Origin: Parapedobacter pyrenivorans
GTDB taxonomy: Bacteria; Bacteroidota; Bacteroidia; Sphingobacteriales; Sphingobacteriaceae
Length of the DNA stretch: 64,000 bases
Direction of reading: 5' to 3'
NCBI RefSeq assembly: GCF_014636865.1
Contig: NZ_BMER01000001.1
Location: forward strand, 2,468,718-2,532,717
Shown: one piece after another, positions 37,004 through 43,568 of the stretch
Position numbering within the stretch: the stretch's first letter is position 1
Layout: each line of letters opens with the position of its first letter
The notes under the pieces: model-generated
Database searches by the model: none
Told to the model about the DNA's origin: nothing
What the model saw: the letters and a program-made list of their open reading frames with translations, nothing else
Position numbers and translations under genes: made by a program

Positions 37004-37867
37004 TTATACGAACAATGCTGCTGCGCCGATTAGCGCCGCCTGTTCACCCAATTGACTGATTCGGATGTCGAAACGATCAAAAGCGTTGGTGTTAAAACTG
37101 CGGAATATATCCCATGCCTTGGAAATGTTGCCACCAATGATAAATTTTTCGGTGCCTTCATGGTCACTGAAGAATTGGATGAACTGAAGCAAGTGATGGC
37201 TGTACTCCGCCAATAAATCATCAACTAAAGCATGTTTATCGCGTAATTGGAGAAGCTCTCGGAGGCCGGTGACTTTTACATTGTGTTGCGCGGCCTTGCG
37301 GACGAACCATCGAGTCACCAAATGCTCTTCCATATTGCTGTCCAGGTAGGGTGTTTTCCACAGATCGGCATCTACGGCATTGTTCCCCCGTTCCCAAATG
37401 GCGCTTCCCAGTCCCGTACCCAATGTGATGCCTAAGATTTTGGTATGGCCATTATGTTTTCCGGCAAAGACCTCGCCCTGCAGAAACGCTGCCGCATCGT
37501 TGATGAAACGGATGTTATCCCCGGCTACTCCCGTCCTTTCAGCAAGCTCCCGGCGGATGTCCATGCCATACAGGTTGTCGTACTTATCTTGGTCGCGCAT
37601 GCGCGAAATGCCGTTTTCGTAGTCGAATGGACCGGGCATCGCGATGCCGATGACCGAGTTATCAGTGCGGGTCCGGTTTTGGATAACTTCTTGGAAAGGA
37701 GCGGCCCATGCCGATAAAATCGATTTAGCATCGGTATGTGAATCAACATGATGCCTGGTGGTAGATTCGGTAATCACCTGCCAGTGGTTGGTATCAACCA
37801 AGGCGGCGGTGACGTGTGTGCCTCCAATATCGGAAGCGATTACAAAGGGGCTATTTTGTTGTTTCAT
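37004..37867 (-). CDS. ROK family sugar kinase-like protein
   Basis: 287 aa. The ATP-binding loop is [15 protein letters not shown] near the N-terminus, the catalytic region is [12 protein letters not shown] and the adenosine loop is [12 protein letters not shown]. The cysteine-rich zinc motif (CxCGxxGCxE) that defines most ROK kinases is absent; the equivalent stretch reads [15 protein letters not shown]. It may be a glucose or N-acetylhexosamine kinase. ATG 37867 overlaps the end of aroC by 17 nt, so it is the last gene of the aromatic operon by position, without an obvious pathway link. Confidence 0.85.
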
Positions 37868-38954
37868 AAATTCGGTTTTTGAGTAAATGATCGGCGAGGA
37901 CCAATGCTGCCATTGCTTCGACGATGATGACAGCACGTGGTACCACGCAGGGATCATGCCGGCCTTTGCCGGTGATTTCGCTAGCTTCTCCCGCTTGGTT
38001 TACGGTCTGCTGCGGGCGCATGATGGTTGCAACAGGTTTAAACGCCACGCGGAATGTGATATCCATGCCATTCGAAATGCCACCTTGGATACCCCCCGAA
38101 AAATTGGTCAGTGTCTTGAGGTGCTCAGCATCATTTGCGGGGTTGACAAAGATATCGTTGTGTTCCGATCCCCGCATCTGTGATCCGGCAAAGCCCGAGC
38201 CATACTCAAAACCGTGTACCGCATTGATTCCCATCATGGCTTTAGCCAAATCGGCATGAAGCTTATCGAATACGGGTTCACCCAATCCCACCGGTGTATT
38301 TTGTATAATGACGCTGATGCGACCACCAACGGTATCACCTGCTTTACGGACGCTATCTATGAAATCAATCATTTCATTGGCCGTCGCGGGGTCGGCGCAA
38401 CGCGCGATATTACCTTCTCGGATGTTGATAAGCTCATCGATATCGTGGGATACCAGGTTGGGGGCTTCAATTTTACCTACACCGGATACATGGGCGAAAA
38501 TGCGGATATCAGATTGTGCGAGCAGTGTTTTTGCCACAGCACCTGCTGCCACCCTTGCTGCCGTCTCACGGGCCGAAGACCGGCCGCCCCCGCGGTAGTC
38601 GCGGATGCCGTATTTCATTTGGTAAGTGTAGTCGGCATGAGAGGGGCGGTACCTATCTTTGATATGCGAATAATCTTTCGACCGTTGATCTTCATTGGGG
38701 ATGACCATGGCCAGTGGTGTACCCGTGGTTTTACCTTCAAACACGCCGGACAGTATTTTGGCCGTGTCGCTCTCCTTGCGCTGAGTCGTTATTCTCGATT
38801 GCCCCGGACGACGTTTATCCAATTCAGACTGGATGAATGATTCATCGAGGGTAATATTCGCCGGACAACCATCAATAATCACGCCGATTGCTTCACCATG
38901 CGATTCGCCAAAGGTGGTAATACGGAATACATCTCCAAATGAGTTTCCTGCCAT
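37851..38954 (-). CDS. aroC: Chorismate synthase
   Basis: Converts EPSP to chorismate using reduced FMN, the last step of the shikimate pathway. 367 aa. Signatures are [17 protein letters not shown] at the N-terminus, [40 protein letters not shown] and [19 protein letters not shown] at the end. It lies 48 nt downstream of aroA and overlaps the ROK gene. Confidence 0.97.
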
Positions 38955-39002: not shown

Positions 39003-40259
39003 CTAAGATAGAATAAATCCGTGTTGTTTCAAATGTTTCCAGAAATCGGGATAAGATTTCTCCACCACATCGGGTTCATTGATTTGTACGCCGTCGAATA
39101 GCAGTGCCAAGGGAGCAAAGGCCATGGCCATGCGGTGATCCTCATACGTTTCGATGGTGAGGTGTTGCGGGCGGAATAATCCCTCGGTAACCAGATGGTA
39201 CACCTTTCCAACTTCCACCAGCTTCACGCCAAATTTACCCAATTCGTTTTGCAGCGCGGCAATGCGGTCGGTTTCTTTGATTTTGAGTGTATGCAATCCG
39301 GTGAACGACAGATTTCGTCGTTGCACCGCGGCACATACAATCACTGTTTGTGCCAGGTCCGGGCATTCGGTGAAGTCAAATAAAGTTTCTTCTGCCTGAT
39401 GAACGCTGGTCGTTTTCTGAATACGCAGTCCACCATCCTCAAAGGTGGATGCCACACCGAAGTGTACCATGATATCCTTAATGGCCGCATCTCCCTGGAG
39501 GCTGTTTTTTTTTAAGTTTGGCAGAAAGAGGTTGGCATCCTCAGCCAACGCCACCATGGCATACCAATAAGATGCCGCGCTCCAGTCCGGCTCGACAGTC
39601 AATCGGCAGGGCTTGGTTGCCTGCGGTGCGATGGTTATCCTATCACCGTTCCATTGGTGTTGGATACCTGCCTCCGCCAGCATATCAAGCGTCATGGTAA
39701 GGTAGGGGCGTGAGGTAAGTTCACCTTCGATCTGCAATTCCAGGCCTTGGGGCAGTGCGGAAGCGATGAGTAGCAATGCAGATAGGTATTGGCTGCTTAC
39801 GTTGCCTTTTATCCGCACGTGGGCCGTTTCTTGCTTAAAGGCACCATCGATAGCGAGTGGCGGATAGCCGGTTGCCCCTGCGTATTGGATATGGGCGCCC
39901 AAGGTGTTAAGGGCGTCTACCAAGATGCCGATGGGTCGTTGTTTCATCCGTTCACTTCCGGTAAGGGTTGCTTGACCCCCGTTGATGGATAGATAGGCAG
40001 TCAAGAAACGCATGGCCGTTCCGGCGGGTCCGATATCAATTACCGTTTCAATTTTCCCGTCGGCAGCTGTCGAGGCAGCGAGCGCGCGCTGAAGCGTTAC
40101 CGTATCAGCGGCCGCAGAAAGGTTTTCGATCGTGACGTTCCCTCCGCTGAGGGCCTGGATGATCAATGCCCGGTTACTTTCGCTTTTCGAACCCGTAAGT
40201 GGTACGTTGCCGCTGAGCGATTTCACCGGATGGGAAAGTTTTATTGTAGGGCCCGCCAT
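39003..40259 (-). CDS. aroA: 3-phosphoshikimate 1-carboxyvinyltransferase (EPSP synthase)
   Basis: Transfers enolpyruvate from PEP to shikimate 3-phosphate. 418 aa, the usual two-domain fold. LTGSKSESNRALIIQAL holds the shikimate-phosphate binding lysine and serine. GPAGTAMRFLTAYLS, QYLSALLLIASALPQG and YEDHRMAMAFAPLAL are further signatures; the glycine after the first AG of the PEP loop (GPAGTAMR) is present. Its ATG overlaps the DAHP synthase stop (TAATG). Confidence 0.95.
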   Translation of the reverse strand: MAGPTIKLSHPVKSLSGNVPLTGSKSESNRALIIQALSGGNVTIENLSAAADTVTLQRALAASTAADGKIETVIDIGPAGTAMRFLTAYLSINGGQATLTGSERMKQRPIGILVDALNTLGAHIQYAGATGYPPLAIDGAFKQETAHVRIKGNVSSQYLSALLLIASALPQGLELQIEGELTSRPYLTMTLDMLAEAGIQHQWNGDRITIAPQATKPCRLTVEPDWSAASYWYAMVALAEDANLFLPNLKKNSLQGDAAIKDIMVHFGVASTFEDGGLRIQKTTSVHQAEETLFDFTECPDLAQTVIVCAAVQRRNLSFTGLHTLKIKETDRIAALQNELGKFGVKLVEVGKVYHLVTEGLFRPQHLTIETYEDHRMAMAFAPLALLFDGVQINEPDVVEKSYPDFWKHLKQHGFILS

Positions 40260-41365
40260 TACGCCTCTGCTACCGGTTTGGTATTCATAATTTCGTTTTG
40301 CTTGCGGATAGATTCATTATGAATCAACTCCAGCATCTTTACGGTGAATTCCTTGTCCAGTTTAAGGGCTTGAGCTACGTTACTACGCTTTTGGATGATC
40401 TCATCCCAACGGCTTACCTGCAGGATGGTTACATTATTGTCGCGCTTATATTCGCCGATTTTTTCGACGATTTTCATTCGGTCGCTCAGTATCTTGATGA
40501 TTTGATCATCCAGCTTATCGATGTCTTTTCGAAACCCAGCCAGCTTGTCTTCGAATACAGGGTCGTTGGACTCCGCATGCCTAGCCACGAGGTTGGTGAT
40601 GATTTCGGCAAGTGCTTGTGGGGTTACCTGTTGCTTCGCATCGGTCCATGCTACGGAAGGATCGATATGCGATTCGATGATCAGCCCCTGCATATCCATA
40701 TCCAGTGCTTTTTGTGCAATGTAAGGGATCAGTTCGCGGTTGCCACAGATATGACTGGGGTCATTGATGACCGGCAGGTCGGGCACCATGGTCTTCAGCT
40801 GGATGGCGAGGTCCCACATGGGTTCATTGCGGAAAGCTGTTTTTTCGTAAGAAGAGAAGCCACGGTGAATAGCGCCCAATTTCTTGATGCCGGCGCGGTT
40901 TACCCGTTCCAAAGCGCCGAGCCAGAGGGAAAGGTCGGGGTTTACCGGGTTTTTGATCAATACGGGTACATCCACGCCTTTAAGCGCATCGGCGATTTCC
41001 TGGACTGTGAAGGGGTTTGCTGTGGAGCGGGCACCTATCCATAGGATATCCACACCGGCCGCCAAGGCCTCTTCCACGTGTTTGGCTGTAGCGACTTCCG
41101 TGGTGATGGGTAGCCCGGTTTCTTCCTTGGCCTTGCGAAGCCATTGGAGACCAACGCTGCCAATTCCTTCGAATTCACCCGGACGTGTGCGCGGTTTCCA
41201 AATGCCTGCACGAAGTACGTTTACTTTGCCGGTATTGGCAAGCAGGTGTGCCGTGGCTAATACTTGCTCTTCCGTTTCGGCACTGCATGGCCCAGCAATT
41301 ACCAATGGTAAGTCGCCGGTATCGATCCATGATTTCAAGGGTACGATGTCTAATGTCTGTTTCAT
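40259..41365 (-). CDS. Bifunctional DAHP synthase / chorismate mutase
   Basis: 368 aa fusion. The N-terminal part (about 1-265) is a type I-beta DAHP synthase that condenses PEP and erythrose 4-phosphate: VIAGPCSAETEEQV, RAGIWKPRTRPGEFEG, RGFSSYEKTAFRNEP, VINDPSHICGNRELI. The C-terminal part (about 275-360) is an AroQ-type chorismate mutase: FRKDIDKLDDQIIKILSDRM, VEKIGEYKR and the final helix with HNESIRKQNEI. It therefore joins the first shikimate step to the first step towards phenylalanine and tyrosine, and allows feedback control through the mutase domain. It follows pheA by 68 nt in the leftward operon. Confidence 0.95.
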   Translation of the reverse strand: MKQTLDIVPLKSWIDTGDLPLVIAGPCSAETEEQVLATAHLLANTGKVNVLRAGIWKPRTRPGEFEGIGSVGLQWLRKAKEETGLPITTEVATAKHVEEALAAGVDILWIGARSTANPFTVQEIADALKGVDVPVLIKNPVNPDLSLWLGALERVNRAGIKKLGAIHRGFSSYEKTAFRNEPMWDLAIQLKTMVPDLPVINDPSHICGNRELIPYIAQKALDMDMQGLIIESHIDPSVAWTDAKQQVTPQALAEIITNLVARHAESNDPVFEDKLAGFRKDIDKLDDQIIKILSDRMKIVEKIGEYKRDNNVTILQVSRWDEIIQKRSNVAQALKLDKEFTVKMLELIHNESIRKQNEIMNTKPVAEA

Positions 41366-41433: not shown

Positions 41434-42258
41434 TCAAACTTTATCATTCTTCACATATTCGCCCATGATGTTAAAGTTGTTAGTAAGTTTCAACACCCGG
41501 CGTATCGCGGCTTCGTAGTCTGCTTGGTCGTTCCATTCCACATCGACATAAAAGTCGTATTCGTTGCGTTTTCCAAGTACCGGCATGGACTGTATCCGGC
41601 TAAGATTGATGTTTTGCTCGGCAAAGCACAGTAGCACTTTAGACAATGCACCCACACCATTGCCCGTTTGGAAAGAGAGCGAGGCTTTATTGACGTTGCT
41701 TTTTTCGTCTGTTTTAGCTGCGAGGATGAGAAAGCGGGTATAGTTTTTCTTATTGGTTTCGATCCGCCGTTCGAGGATTTCCAATCCATATAGTTTTGCA
41801 GAGAGCTGGTTAGCGACGGCTGCGGTGTCTTTCAGTTGCAACTCACTTACTTTTTTTGCACTGCCGGCCGTATCTTCACCCTCCGTAATTTTGAACTGTG
41901 GGTTTTCCTCCAGGTAATCGCTGCATTGCTGTAAGGCAATGGGATGCGACTCTACGAACTTGATGTCTTGGATGGTTACACCCGGTGAAACCAGCAAGTG
42001 CAGTTTAATGTGTAGGTATACTTCACCGACTATGGGGAAACGGTAGTCGCGGAGCAGGCTGTGGTTGGGTAATAATCCGCCTGCAATGGAGTTCTCGATG
42101 GCCATCACTACGTAGTCGACCCTTCCCTGTTTTAGCAGCTCGCAGGTTTTCTTGAACGACTCACACTCCACCGTTTCGATATCTTCCCCGAAATATTTGT
42201 AGGCAGCTTCTTCATGGAAGCATCCCTTGATCCCTTGTATGGCTACTTTTATGCTCAT
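41434..42258 (-). CDS. pheA: Prephenate dehydratase
   Basis: Turns prephenate into phenylpyruvate for phenylalanine synthesis. 274 aa. The catalytic domain (about 1-182) has GIKGCFHEEAAYKYFG, MAIENSIAGGLLPNHSLL and KNYTRFLIL with the conserved TRF. The C-terminal ACT domain (about 195-270, GVGALSKVLLCFAEQNINLS, RIQSMPVLG) binds phenylalanine for feedback. It is the first structural gene after an aromatic leader peptide and terminator, so transcription should respond to aminoacyl-tRNA supply. Mutase activity comes from the neighbouring fusion protein. Confidence 0.96.
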   Translation of the reverse strand: MSIKVAIQGIKGCFHEEAAYKYFGEDIETVECESFKKTCELLKQGRVDYVVMAIENSIAGGLLPNHSLLRDYRFPIVGEVYLHIKLHLLVSPGVTIQDIKFVESHPIALQQCSDYLEENPQFKITEGEDTAGSAKKVSELQLKDTAAVANQLSAKLYGLEILERRIETNKKNYTRFLILAAKTDEKSNVNKASLSFQTGNGVGALSKVLLCFAEQNINLSRIQSMPVLGKRNEYDFYVDVEWNDQADYEAAIRRVLKLTNNFNIMGEYVKNDKV

Positions 42259-42279: not shown

Positions 42280-42312
42280 AAAAAAAGTCCCGGCTTTCTT
42301 GCCGGGACTTTT
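42280..42312 (-). terminator. Attenuator terminator before pheA
   Basis: On the minus strand AAAAGTCCCGGC (42312-42301) pairs perfectly with GCCGGGACTTTT (42294-42283), loop AAGAAA, followed by a run of seven U (42286-42280). It lies 33 nt after the leader-peptide stop and 21 nt before the pheA ATG, so it works as an attenuator. The 5' arm can instead pair with GCCGGGAT at 42356-42349. Confidence 0.85.
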
Positions 42313-42345
42313 CTACATTTATATCTTCTACGTTATGAATGCATA

Positions 42346-42414
42346 TCAATCCCGGCTTTTATCGCTAAAATAAAAGAAGCCAAAAAACCAGTATGCATTG
42401 TTCCGTGTTAACAT
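42346..42414 (-). CDS. Aromatic leader peptide of the pheA operon
   Basis: A 22-codon open frame reading MLTRNNAYWFFGFFYFSDKS and then RD, stop TGA. Residues 8-16 (YWFFGFFYF) contain eight aromatic residues out of nine: five Phe, two Tyr, one Trp. It starts a few bases after a consensus promoter, with GAAGAG just before the ATG, and is followed by an intrinsic terminator. Its last three codons contain GCCGGGAT, able to pair with the terminator's 5' arm. A ribosome stalled on the aromatic codons would free this segment and let the antiterminator form; a ribosome reaching the stop would cover it and let the terminator form. This is the logic known for the E. coli pheA and trp leaders. Too short for automatic gene calling. 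Confidence 0.85.
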   Translation of the reverse strand: MLTRNNAYWFFGFFYFSDKSRD

Positions 42415-42432
42415 CTCTTCTGTTTGACGAGC

Positions 42433-42462
42433 CAAATGTACATCATTTTTCTTTATTATCAA
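42433..42462 (-). promoter_or_regulatory. Promoter of the pheA-aro operon
   Basis: On the minus strand TTG (42462-42460), a 19-nt spacer and TACATTTG (42440-42433) match the Bacteroidota consensus exactly. The leader-peptide ATG is 19 nt after the box. Confidence 0.7.
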
Positions 42463-42785: not shown

Positions 42786-43568
42786 TTAGCGCTGGCTGAG
42801 AAATTGAGATGCATAGGTGTAAACATATTCATAAATATGCATTAGTTCTTTCTTGCCAAACATGCTGAATTGAAGCATATCCGGCGGTTCCAAAAACAAA
42901 TCACACTCCCGGGCATTTAAGCCCACGGACTGCCCGATTGCAAGATGAGTGATCCGGTCGAGCATCTTTGCCGGCGTGAGTTTTTCGGGTTCAATATGAT
43001 CGGGTGCATTTACATGTACCCCGATTAAGTACTTACATTGCCCCAGCAGTGGCTTAACGGGGAGGTTGTCGAGTATCCCTCCATCATAATAAACAGATTC
43101 GCCACGTTTTATGGGAGGAAACATTAATGGCACACTGGATGATGCCAACAGTGCATCATCTAGCGTACCCGAGTGGAAGTATTCGACCTTGCCCGCCCTA
43201 AAGTTTGTGGCCGATACGTGAAGCGGTATCTTCAAGGCCTCAAACGTATTTTCAGGAATGTGTTTATGGATCAATCGAGCGAGAAAGCGATTATCTACAA
43301 AACCGGAGGTACGCAAGCGAAAGCTTGTAGTAGGGAAAAGGTCGTTTTCTCCTATGATGCGCAGCATCCCTTCTACCGTATATCCGGCAGCATAAAAAGC
43401 ACCGATAATGGCACCCATGCTGCATCCAGAAATAATTGAAGGCCGGTAGCCATGCTCCTCCAGGGCCTTGATGGCACCCAAATGGCCTATGCCACGTAAT
43501 CCGCCACCGGAGAGTACAAGGCCTACTTTGTGGGGACGCCGCTGTCGTTTTTTCAGACTGAAAACCAT
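42786..43568 (-). CDS. Patatin-like phospholipase
   Basis: Serine lipid acyl hydrolase, 260 aa. The oxyanion loop is LVLSGGGLRGIGHLGAIKAL, the nucleophile serine is in SGCSMGAIIG (GxSxG) and the catalytic aspartate is in YYDGGILDNLP, the patatin Ser-Asp dyad. It has no signal peptide and resembles the short cytoplasmic or peripheral NTE/RssA-type bacterial enzymes. It is transcribed alone, divergent from the binding lipoprotein at 43660. Confidence 0.93.
   Translation of the reverse strand: MVFSLKKRQRRPHKVGLVLSGGGLRGIGHLGAIKALEEHGYRPSIISGCSMGAIIGAFYAAGYTVEGMLRIIGENDLFPTTSFRLRTSGFVDNRFLARLIHKHIPENTFEALKIPLHVSATNFRAGKVEYFHSGTLDDALLASSSVPLMFPPIKRGESVYYDGGILDNLPVKPLLGQCKYLIGVHVNAPDHIEPEKLTPAKMLDRITHLAIGQSVGLNARECDLFLEPPDMLQFSMFGKKELMHIYEYVYTYASQFLSQR

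Follow-up and report, generated by a model that had tools for sequence, protein, structure and literature searches.

A candidate phenylalanine- and tyrosine-responsive attenuator before the pheA operon of Parapedobacter pyrenivorans and its relatives

In E. coli the pheA leader contains codons for Phe and none for Tyr, and pheA is the only gene under its control; the thr and ilv leaders of the same organism carry mixed control codons. For sensing by the nascent chain itself, the arrest peptide TnaC provides the comparison. The Bacteroid-trp motif, RF01692, is a Trp attenuator. According to the excerpted text of a paper from 2010, no leader-peptide system was known outside the Proteobacteria and Actinobacteria before the Firmicutes case presented there, ermC aside (PMC2965389). 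In the excerpt of its original description, Bacteroid-trp is a putative cis-regulatory RNA of Bacteroidetes (Weinberg 2010, PMC2864571), and short ORFs reminiscent of leader peptides are mentioned for Bacteroides in part of PMC7366714. The closest precedent comes from Flavobacterium psychrophilum, for which the available portion of PMC9723704 describes a structured 5' element upstream of pheA, without Rfam hits, that is also present in other genera of the Flavobacteriaceae, together with clues for leader-peptide attenuation ahead of amino-acid operons. The term pheA is absent from the main text of PMC4833913 and of PMC7366714. The author of an earlier note on the present DNA knew of no experimentally studied case in this family, and none was found in the open-access literature that we searched.

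We have analysed a window of 64,000 nucleotides from P. pyrenivorans, in which a short frame rich in aromatic codons precedes pheA. On the basis of conservation, covariation and geometry, all assessed in silico, this leader very probably works as a transcription attenuator of the ribosome-mediated trp/phe type and reports the supply of Phe and Tyr. The ribosome stalling proposed in the earlier note is thus well supported by these three lines of evidence.

The leader region and its operon

The features of the locus, all of which lie on the minus strand, are as follows.

42462-42460 and 42440-42433, minus: promoter, TTG, a 19-nt spacer and TACATTTG; read from the sequence
42414 (ATG) to 42346 (TGA), minus: leader ORF of 22 codons, MLTRNNAYWFFGFFYFSDKSRD; from the sequence and similar leaders in relatives
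42367..42393, minus: putative control codons 8-16, YWFFGFFYF; from the sequence and the footprint scan
42376-42370 and 42362-42356, minus: apical stem of protector hairpin 1:2, CTTTTAT with ATAAAAG; from covariation
42348..42356, minus: segment 2, the 5' strand of the predicted antiterminator, GCCGGGATT; from the duplex test
42308-42301, minus: core of segment 3, GTCCCGGC, within the 5' arm of the terminator
42314-42301 and 42294-42281, minus: arms of terminator 3:4, with seven T, the last at 42280; from folding and covariation
41434..42258, minus: pheA, prephenate dehydratase (PF00800), ATG at 42258; domain match
40259..41365, minus: fusion of DAHP synthase I and chorismate mutase II (PF00793, PF01817); domain match
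39003..40259, minus: aroA, EPSP synthase (PF00275); domain match
37851..38954, minus: aroC, chorismate synthase (PF01264); domain match

The coordinates previously assigned to the promoter, the 22-codon frame, the segments and the terminator hold on re-reading. The terminator had been described as 12 bp long; a hairpin followed by seven U does stand before pheA, and its length is 14 pairs when A-U pairs and one G-U pair are included. The portion of segment 2 that reads GCCGGGAT (42356-42349) lies within leader codons 20-22.

The 90 nt that precede the leader ORF contain the promoter pattern TTG-N17-21-TAnnTTTG, which we take to be the Bacteroidota promoter type, in 113 of 128 leaders of the family set defined below (shuffle mean 1.2), and in only 14 of 50 leaders outside that set (shuffle mean 0.4). 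A Shine-Dalgarno core precedes 2 of the 128 family-set leaders and is therefore rarer than in shuffled sequences (mean 8.9); outside the set the count is 1 of 50, with a shuffle mean of 1.2. The gene order pheA-DAHP synthase/chorismate mutase-aroA-aroC is present in 77 of 80 named loci, these being the best 80 of 336 by PheA; all gene orders reported here are from the best match per gene, taken without regard to gaps. As a side observation, aroC in the window overlaps the next ORF on the same strand, of the ROK family, at 37851-37957, and a ROK gene lies downstream of aroC in 54 of the same 80 loci.

The proposed mechanism is as follows. The RNA would begin at about position 42427. When Phe-tRNA and Tyr-tRNA are both plentiful, the ribosome would pass the aromatic run and cover segment 2, whereupon helix 3:4 would form and transcription would stop 21 nt short of pheA. 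When either charged tRNA is scarce, the ribosome would wait within the run and hairpin 1:2 would be opened. Segment 2, now free, would pair with segment 3, and with 2:3 formed, pheA, the DAHP synthase/chorismate mutase gene, aroA and aroC would be transcribed.

Conservation of the leader and the amino acids it reads

We examined 218 pheA loci, comprising the 80 named loci and 138 from other genomes; of the 135 same-family genomes with pheA, 76 were used, and nine genomes of the same class that have a PheA match lie outside the locus set. The start of pheA was located by tblastn in 211 of the 218 loci and read by coordinates in the remaining seven. Removal of 28 identical upstream regions gave 183 unique ones, of which 128 belong to the family set and 55 lie outside it; near-identical regions from one species under two records may persist among them. 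The family set consists of the named loci and the same-family genomes, assigned by locus number, and includes one locus labelled Flavihumibacter (L071) and one from a MAG labelled Legionellaceae (L064). The nearest named relative among the best 80 of 336 is P. lycopersici, whose PheA is 91% identical to that of the window.

An ORF with at least six aromatic residues in ten was found in the last 300 nt of all 128 unique family-set upstream regions, compared with 1 to 6 in each of five shuffled sets. With at least seven aromatic residues in ten the count was 126 of 128, compared with 0 or 1 of 128 in each shuffled set. For loci of the same class outside the family, 47 of 52 have at least seven aromatics in ten within 450 nt; in the other five (L147, L149, L150, L164 and L175) no aromatic leader was found in the 450 nt searched. 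Beyond the class, a leader precedes pheA in 5 of the 10 loci of best PheA score and in none of 40 loci of lower score, a zero that is firmer for 30 of these, as in the other ten an open frame of at least 369 codons suggests that the searched stretch may be coding. Within the sampled loci, then, the aromatic leader as recognised from sequence is frequent in the class, and outside the class it is rare.

A search with a covariance model of the leader (R1) gave a consistent picture. In the genome of P. pyrenivorans there is one strong match, the leader in the window (109.9 bits); a second match, of 40.9 bits, was set aside because it contains at most 4 aromatics in 10. Across 61 family genomes a match was found in 60 at E<=0.01 and in 49 at E<=1e-5. 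Ten of the 12 genomes that have no match at the stricter limit are those in which no pheA was found, and their best matches have E values of 2e-4 to 2e-3; matches in this range are therefore noise. Two genomes remain: G007, with a weak match directly before pheA, and G032, with none. Outside the family, 30 of 62 loci match at E<=0.01, counted without regard to position.

Which amino acids does the leader read? Phe and Tyr codons are both present in 178 of 178 leaders, whereas a Trp codon occurs in only 51. The earlier note took the three aromatic residues of the window's leader as a sign that the whole aromatic pool is sensed, which would mean that Phe, Tyr and Trp count equally. This has some points in its favour: codon 9 is TGG, a ribosome waiting on it would, like one waiting elsewhere in the run, keep the antiterminator intact, and W is found in 40 of 128 family-set leaders and 11 of 50 others. 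However, 127 of the 178 leaders are without W, and of the eight Parapedobacter compared, namely the window and L002-L008, P. soli and P. composti have an Arg codon in its place; a further genome labelled Parapedobacter (L024), with a PheA only 69% identical, also has a leader without Trp. Moreover, trpE of the same genome is preceded by a separate WWW leader. We consider equal sensing of all three amino acids unlikely and the earlier claim probably too wide; Trp input is at most accessory. The pairing of TGG with segment 2 was also considered as a reason for its presence, and outside the window's leader it is mainly the third base of TGG that pairs; the Arg codons found in its place pair with segment 2 likewise.

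The leader before trpE (L221 upstream of position 1459, on contig C5 of the genome) reads MAIKRFHIGLWWWLDSDNVGSVGTSIYS and is followed by a terminator recognised by eye, CCCGACG...CGTCGGGTTTTTT. From its sequence it is likely a Trp attenuator; in Rfam it has no match at E<=1, RF01692 included. Other leaders were noticed elsewhere. Before thrA, the aspartokinase/homoserine dehydrogenase gene of this genome (C1, L263:690), the leader VSKYTTTTTIITTGDKARRK is accompanied by a strong terminator and is likely a further attenuator. In L253 and L254, second matches of the pheA leader model mark a Thr/Ile leader, which in L253 reads MIFNTSIITTIIITTG by eye translation and is alike in L254; it has a terminator and precedes an aspartokinase/homoserine dehydrogenase-like gene. 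On the reverse strand of L265, from position 557, there is a His-rich ORF, MQIAFIHPFIHLHHRHCGDV, about 310 nt upstream of a hisG match, with a weak terminator.

The gene order outside the family bears on the same question. There the gene after pheA encodes an aminotransferase in 18 of 22 loci, 16 of which also show tyrA, and the DAHP synthase/chorismate mutase in the other four. The proximity of an aminotransferase gene and tyrA to pheA fits the sensing of both products, Phe and Tyr. In P. pyrenivorans tyrA lies behind an aminotransferase gene away from the pheA operon (C4, L224/L220), and no aromatic leader was found upstream of this pair. The simplest reading of these sequence comparisons is that the Phe-and-Tyr sensor is older than the present operon, with Trp as an optional extra. 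On balance we incline to the view that a single old attenuator, responding to Phe or Tyr, controls the synthesis of aromatic amino acids in much of the class and was retained while the operon was rebuilt.

A short leader with an aromatic run in all 128 family-set upstream regions might also be expected if the nascent peptide were the sensor, with an aromatic-rich chain arresting the ribosome and free Phe or Tyr acting as co-factor, as in a TnaC-like system. But it is the class of residue and not the sequence that is kept. In the family set each of the nine final positions of the run holds F in some leaders and Y in others, and the run is interrupted by N, G, S, A or H; this interchange of F and Y argues for codon reading over an arrest peptide. 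Further, the C-terminal KSRD of the window's peptide is encoded by segment 2 and is missing from leaders that stop earlier. A peptide sensor therefore appears very improbable, and the reading of codons by the ribosome is much to be preferred. The Gly within the run is unlikely to be an accident, since the GG of its codon pairs with segment 2 with a probability of at least 0.98 in nine of ten folded leaders; in the window's own leader the value is only 0.3.

RNA helices and the position of the ribosome

The 151-nt leader RNA folds with -45.2 kcal/mol (z -5.59), and 0 of 200 shuffled sequences did equally well. The earlier RNA model included helices 2:3 and 3:4, both of which are recovered here, and missed a hairpin, 1:2, that from folding and covariation would sequester segment 2. 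Covariation was evaluated on 126 family-set sequences (two were dropped, one identical and one containing N) by comparing alignment columns with 300 alignments simulated on the sequence tree. In the strongest of 20503 column pairs the partners are the wobble base of the last Tyr codon and, 8 columns further downstream, a purine; the composition is T-A 63 and C-G 59. This pair sits in the apical 1:2 stem, CTTTTAY/RTAAGAG, the last base of which is the first of segment 2, and it alone has E<0.05 over all column pairs; no 2:3 pair passes. Summed over helices, covariation was equalled in 0 of 300 simulations for 3:4 and in 1 of 300 each for 2:3 and the apical 1:2 stem, the sum for the latter coming mostly from one column pair. 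The basal 1:2 stem was not significant (48 of 300). The excess of standard pairs was matched in 0 of 300 simulations for 3:4, 17 for the apical 1:2 stem and 24 for 2:3. The parts of the predicted switch are conserved in relatives, the aromatic run in 128 of 128 family-set upstream regions and the helices 3:4, 2:3 and apical 1:2 by covariation.

A second alignment, A1, consisting of 57 less similar leaders (L058 was excluded), gave 92.7% paired cells for 1:2 plus 3:4, with 0 of 500 shuffles as good, and 95.5% for the apical 1:2 stem. For 2:3 the value was 85.8%, and 1 of 500 shuffles was as good by covariation score. Taken together, the apical stem supports a protector hairpin 1:2 in these sequences, and the basal stem is unsupported.

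The pairing of segment 2 with segment 3 was assessed locus by locus. The terminator finder gave no hit in 10 of 178 loci; five of these were inspected and all have a hairpin, four with an imperfect T tract. Altogether 17 of the 178 leaders, those without a good terminator score, were excluded from the duplex, swap and footprint tests, leaving 114 family-set and 47 other loci. The duplex of segment 2 with the terminator arm of its own locus, proposed for the window as 42356-42349 with 42308-42301, reached p<=0.05 in 106 of 114 and 46 of 47 loci. When arms were swapped outside the family, segment 2 fitted its own segment 3 so well in 33 of 47 loci that at most 5% of the foreign arms did as well or better; inside the family, where the arms are alike, the test is not discriminating (17 of 114 at <=5%). 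A first duplex test for 1:2, in which the N-terminal codons of the leader were paired with segment 2 extended by 22 nt, gave a weak result (p<=0.05 in 19 of 114 and 7 of 47). By these comparisons antiterminator 2:3 and terminator 3:4 are predicted to be mutually exclusive. When the RNA is cut at the terminator loop and folded at equilibrium with no ribosome, 2:3 forms and not 1:2, which implies that termination without translation would rest on the order of events during transcription, with 1:2 forming first.

The position of the control codons was tested with a footprint assumed to extend 13 nt onward from the first base of the A-site codon. In the window, with codons 8-16 in the A site (12 was left out), the antiterminator retains at least 7.97 of 8 pairs; this falls to 4.98 at codon 17 and to zero at codons 19, 20, 22 and 23 (18 and 21 were left out). 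At the last aromatic codon the 114 family-set loci retain a fraction of 0.90 of their antiterminator pairs, and at the three codons that follow 0.55, 0.13 and 0.03; in the 47 others the fraction is 0.86 and then 0.65, 0.24 and 0.07. The first codon at which fewer than half of the pairs are left lies one to three codons beyond the last aromatic one in 111 of 114 family-set loci and in 39 of the 47 others. The search for segment 2 began at the last aromatic codon, so the lower bound of this interval was preset and the upper side alone is a finding. With this footprint, nearly every aromatic codon is placed where a stalled ribosome would leave segment 2 free, and the placement fits a model in which stalling would free segment 2 and finishing the peptide would cover it.

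It might be asked whether the hairpin is simply the terminator of the patatin-family gene upstream of the leader (42786-43568), which is read in the same direction and whose transcript it could also end, the short ORF being unrelated; but this would give no role to the promoter, leader and segment 2 conserved before pheA, nor to the covariation of 1:2 and 2:3, and can be dismissed as highly implausible.

Implications and comparison with known attenuators

An attenuator of the kind proposed needs a ribosome close behind RNA polymerase, and its conservation would therefore mean that transcription and translation are tightly coupled in these bacteria. If this is true, coupling holds on leaders that start without a Shine-Dalgarno core, and ribosome-polymerase coupling in these bacteria becomes a directly testable question. 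The attenuator would account for the way in which aromatic synthesis is adjusted to supply in a large group of Bacteroidota. It would also be a regulator that is widely shared yet goes unrecognised by Rfam 15, both in the window and in the 12 pheA loci tested.

Like the Rfam family built on the E. coli pheA leader (RF01859, Phe_leader), the present leader combines a Phe-rich ORF, a protector hairpin, an antiterminator and a terminator before pheA. In cmscan it aligns with the whole 125-position model; its score is 30.3 bits, below the gathering cut-off of 55. No Rfam leader family was found at gathering in the 14 loci tested, 12 of them pheA loci. It differs from its E. coli counterpart in having both Phe and Tyr codons and in preceding an operon of four genes. 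Bacteroid-trp, by the excerpt of its description (PMC2864571), is likewise a putative cis-regulatory RNA of Bacteroidetes, and RF01692 is not among the 22 Rfam matches of the window's leader at E<=10. Nearer at hand, the pheA element of F. psychrophilum precedes the same gene in related bacteria and likewise has no Rfam hit; in the available portion of that paper it is described without a leader sequence, a switch model or an amino-acid specificity (PMC9723704). In serving more than one amino acid with one leader, the present system would resemble the thr and ilv leaders of E. coli, with different amino acids. The kind of system is thus already known, and what is added here is its wide conservation, the 1:2 hairpin and the reading of Phe plus Tyr.
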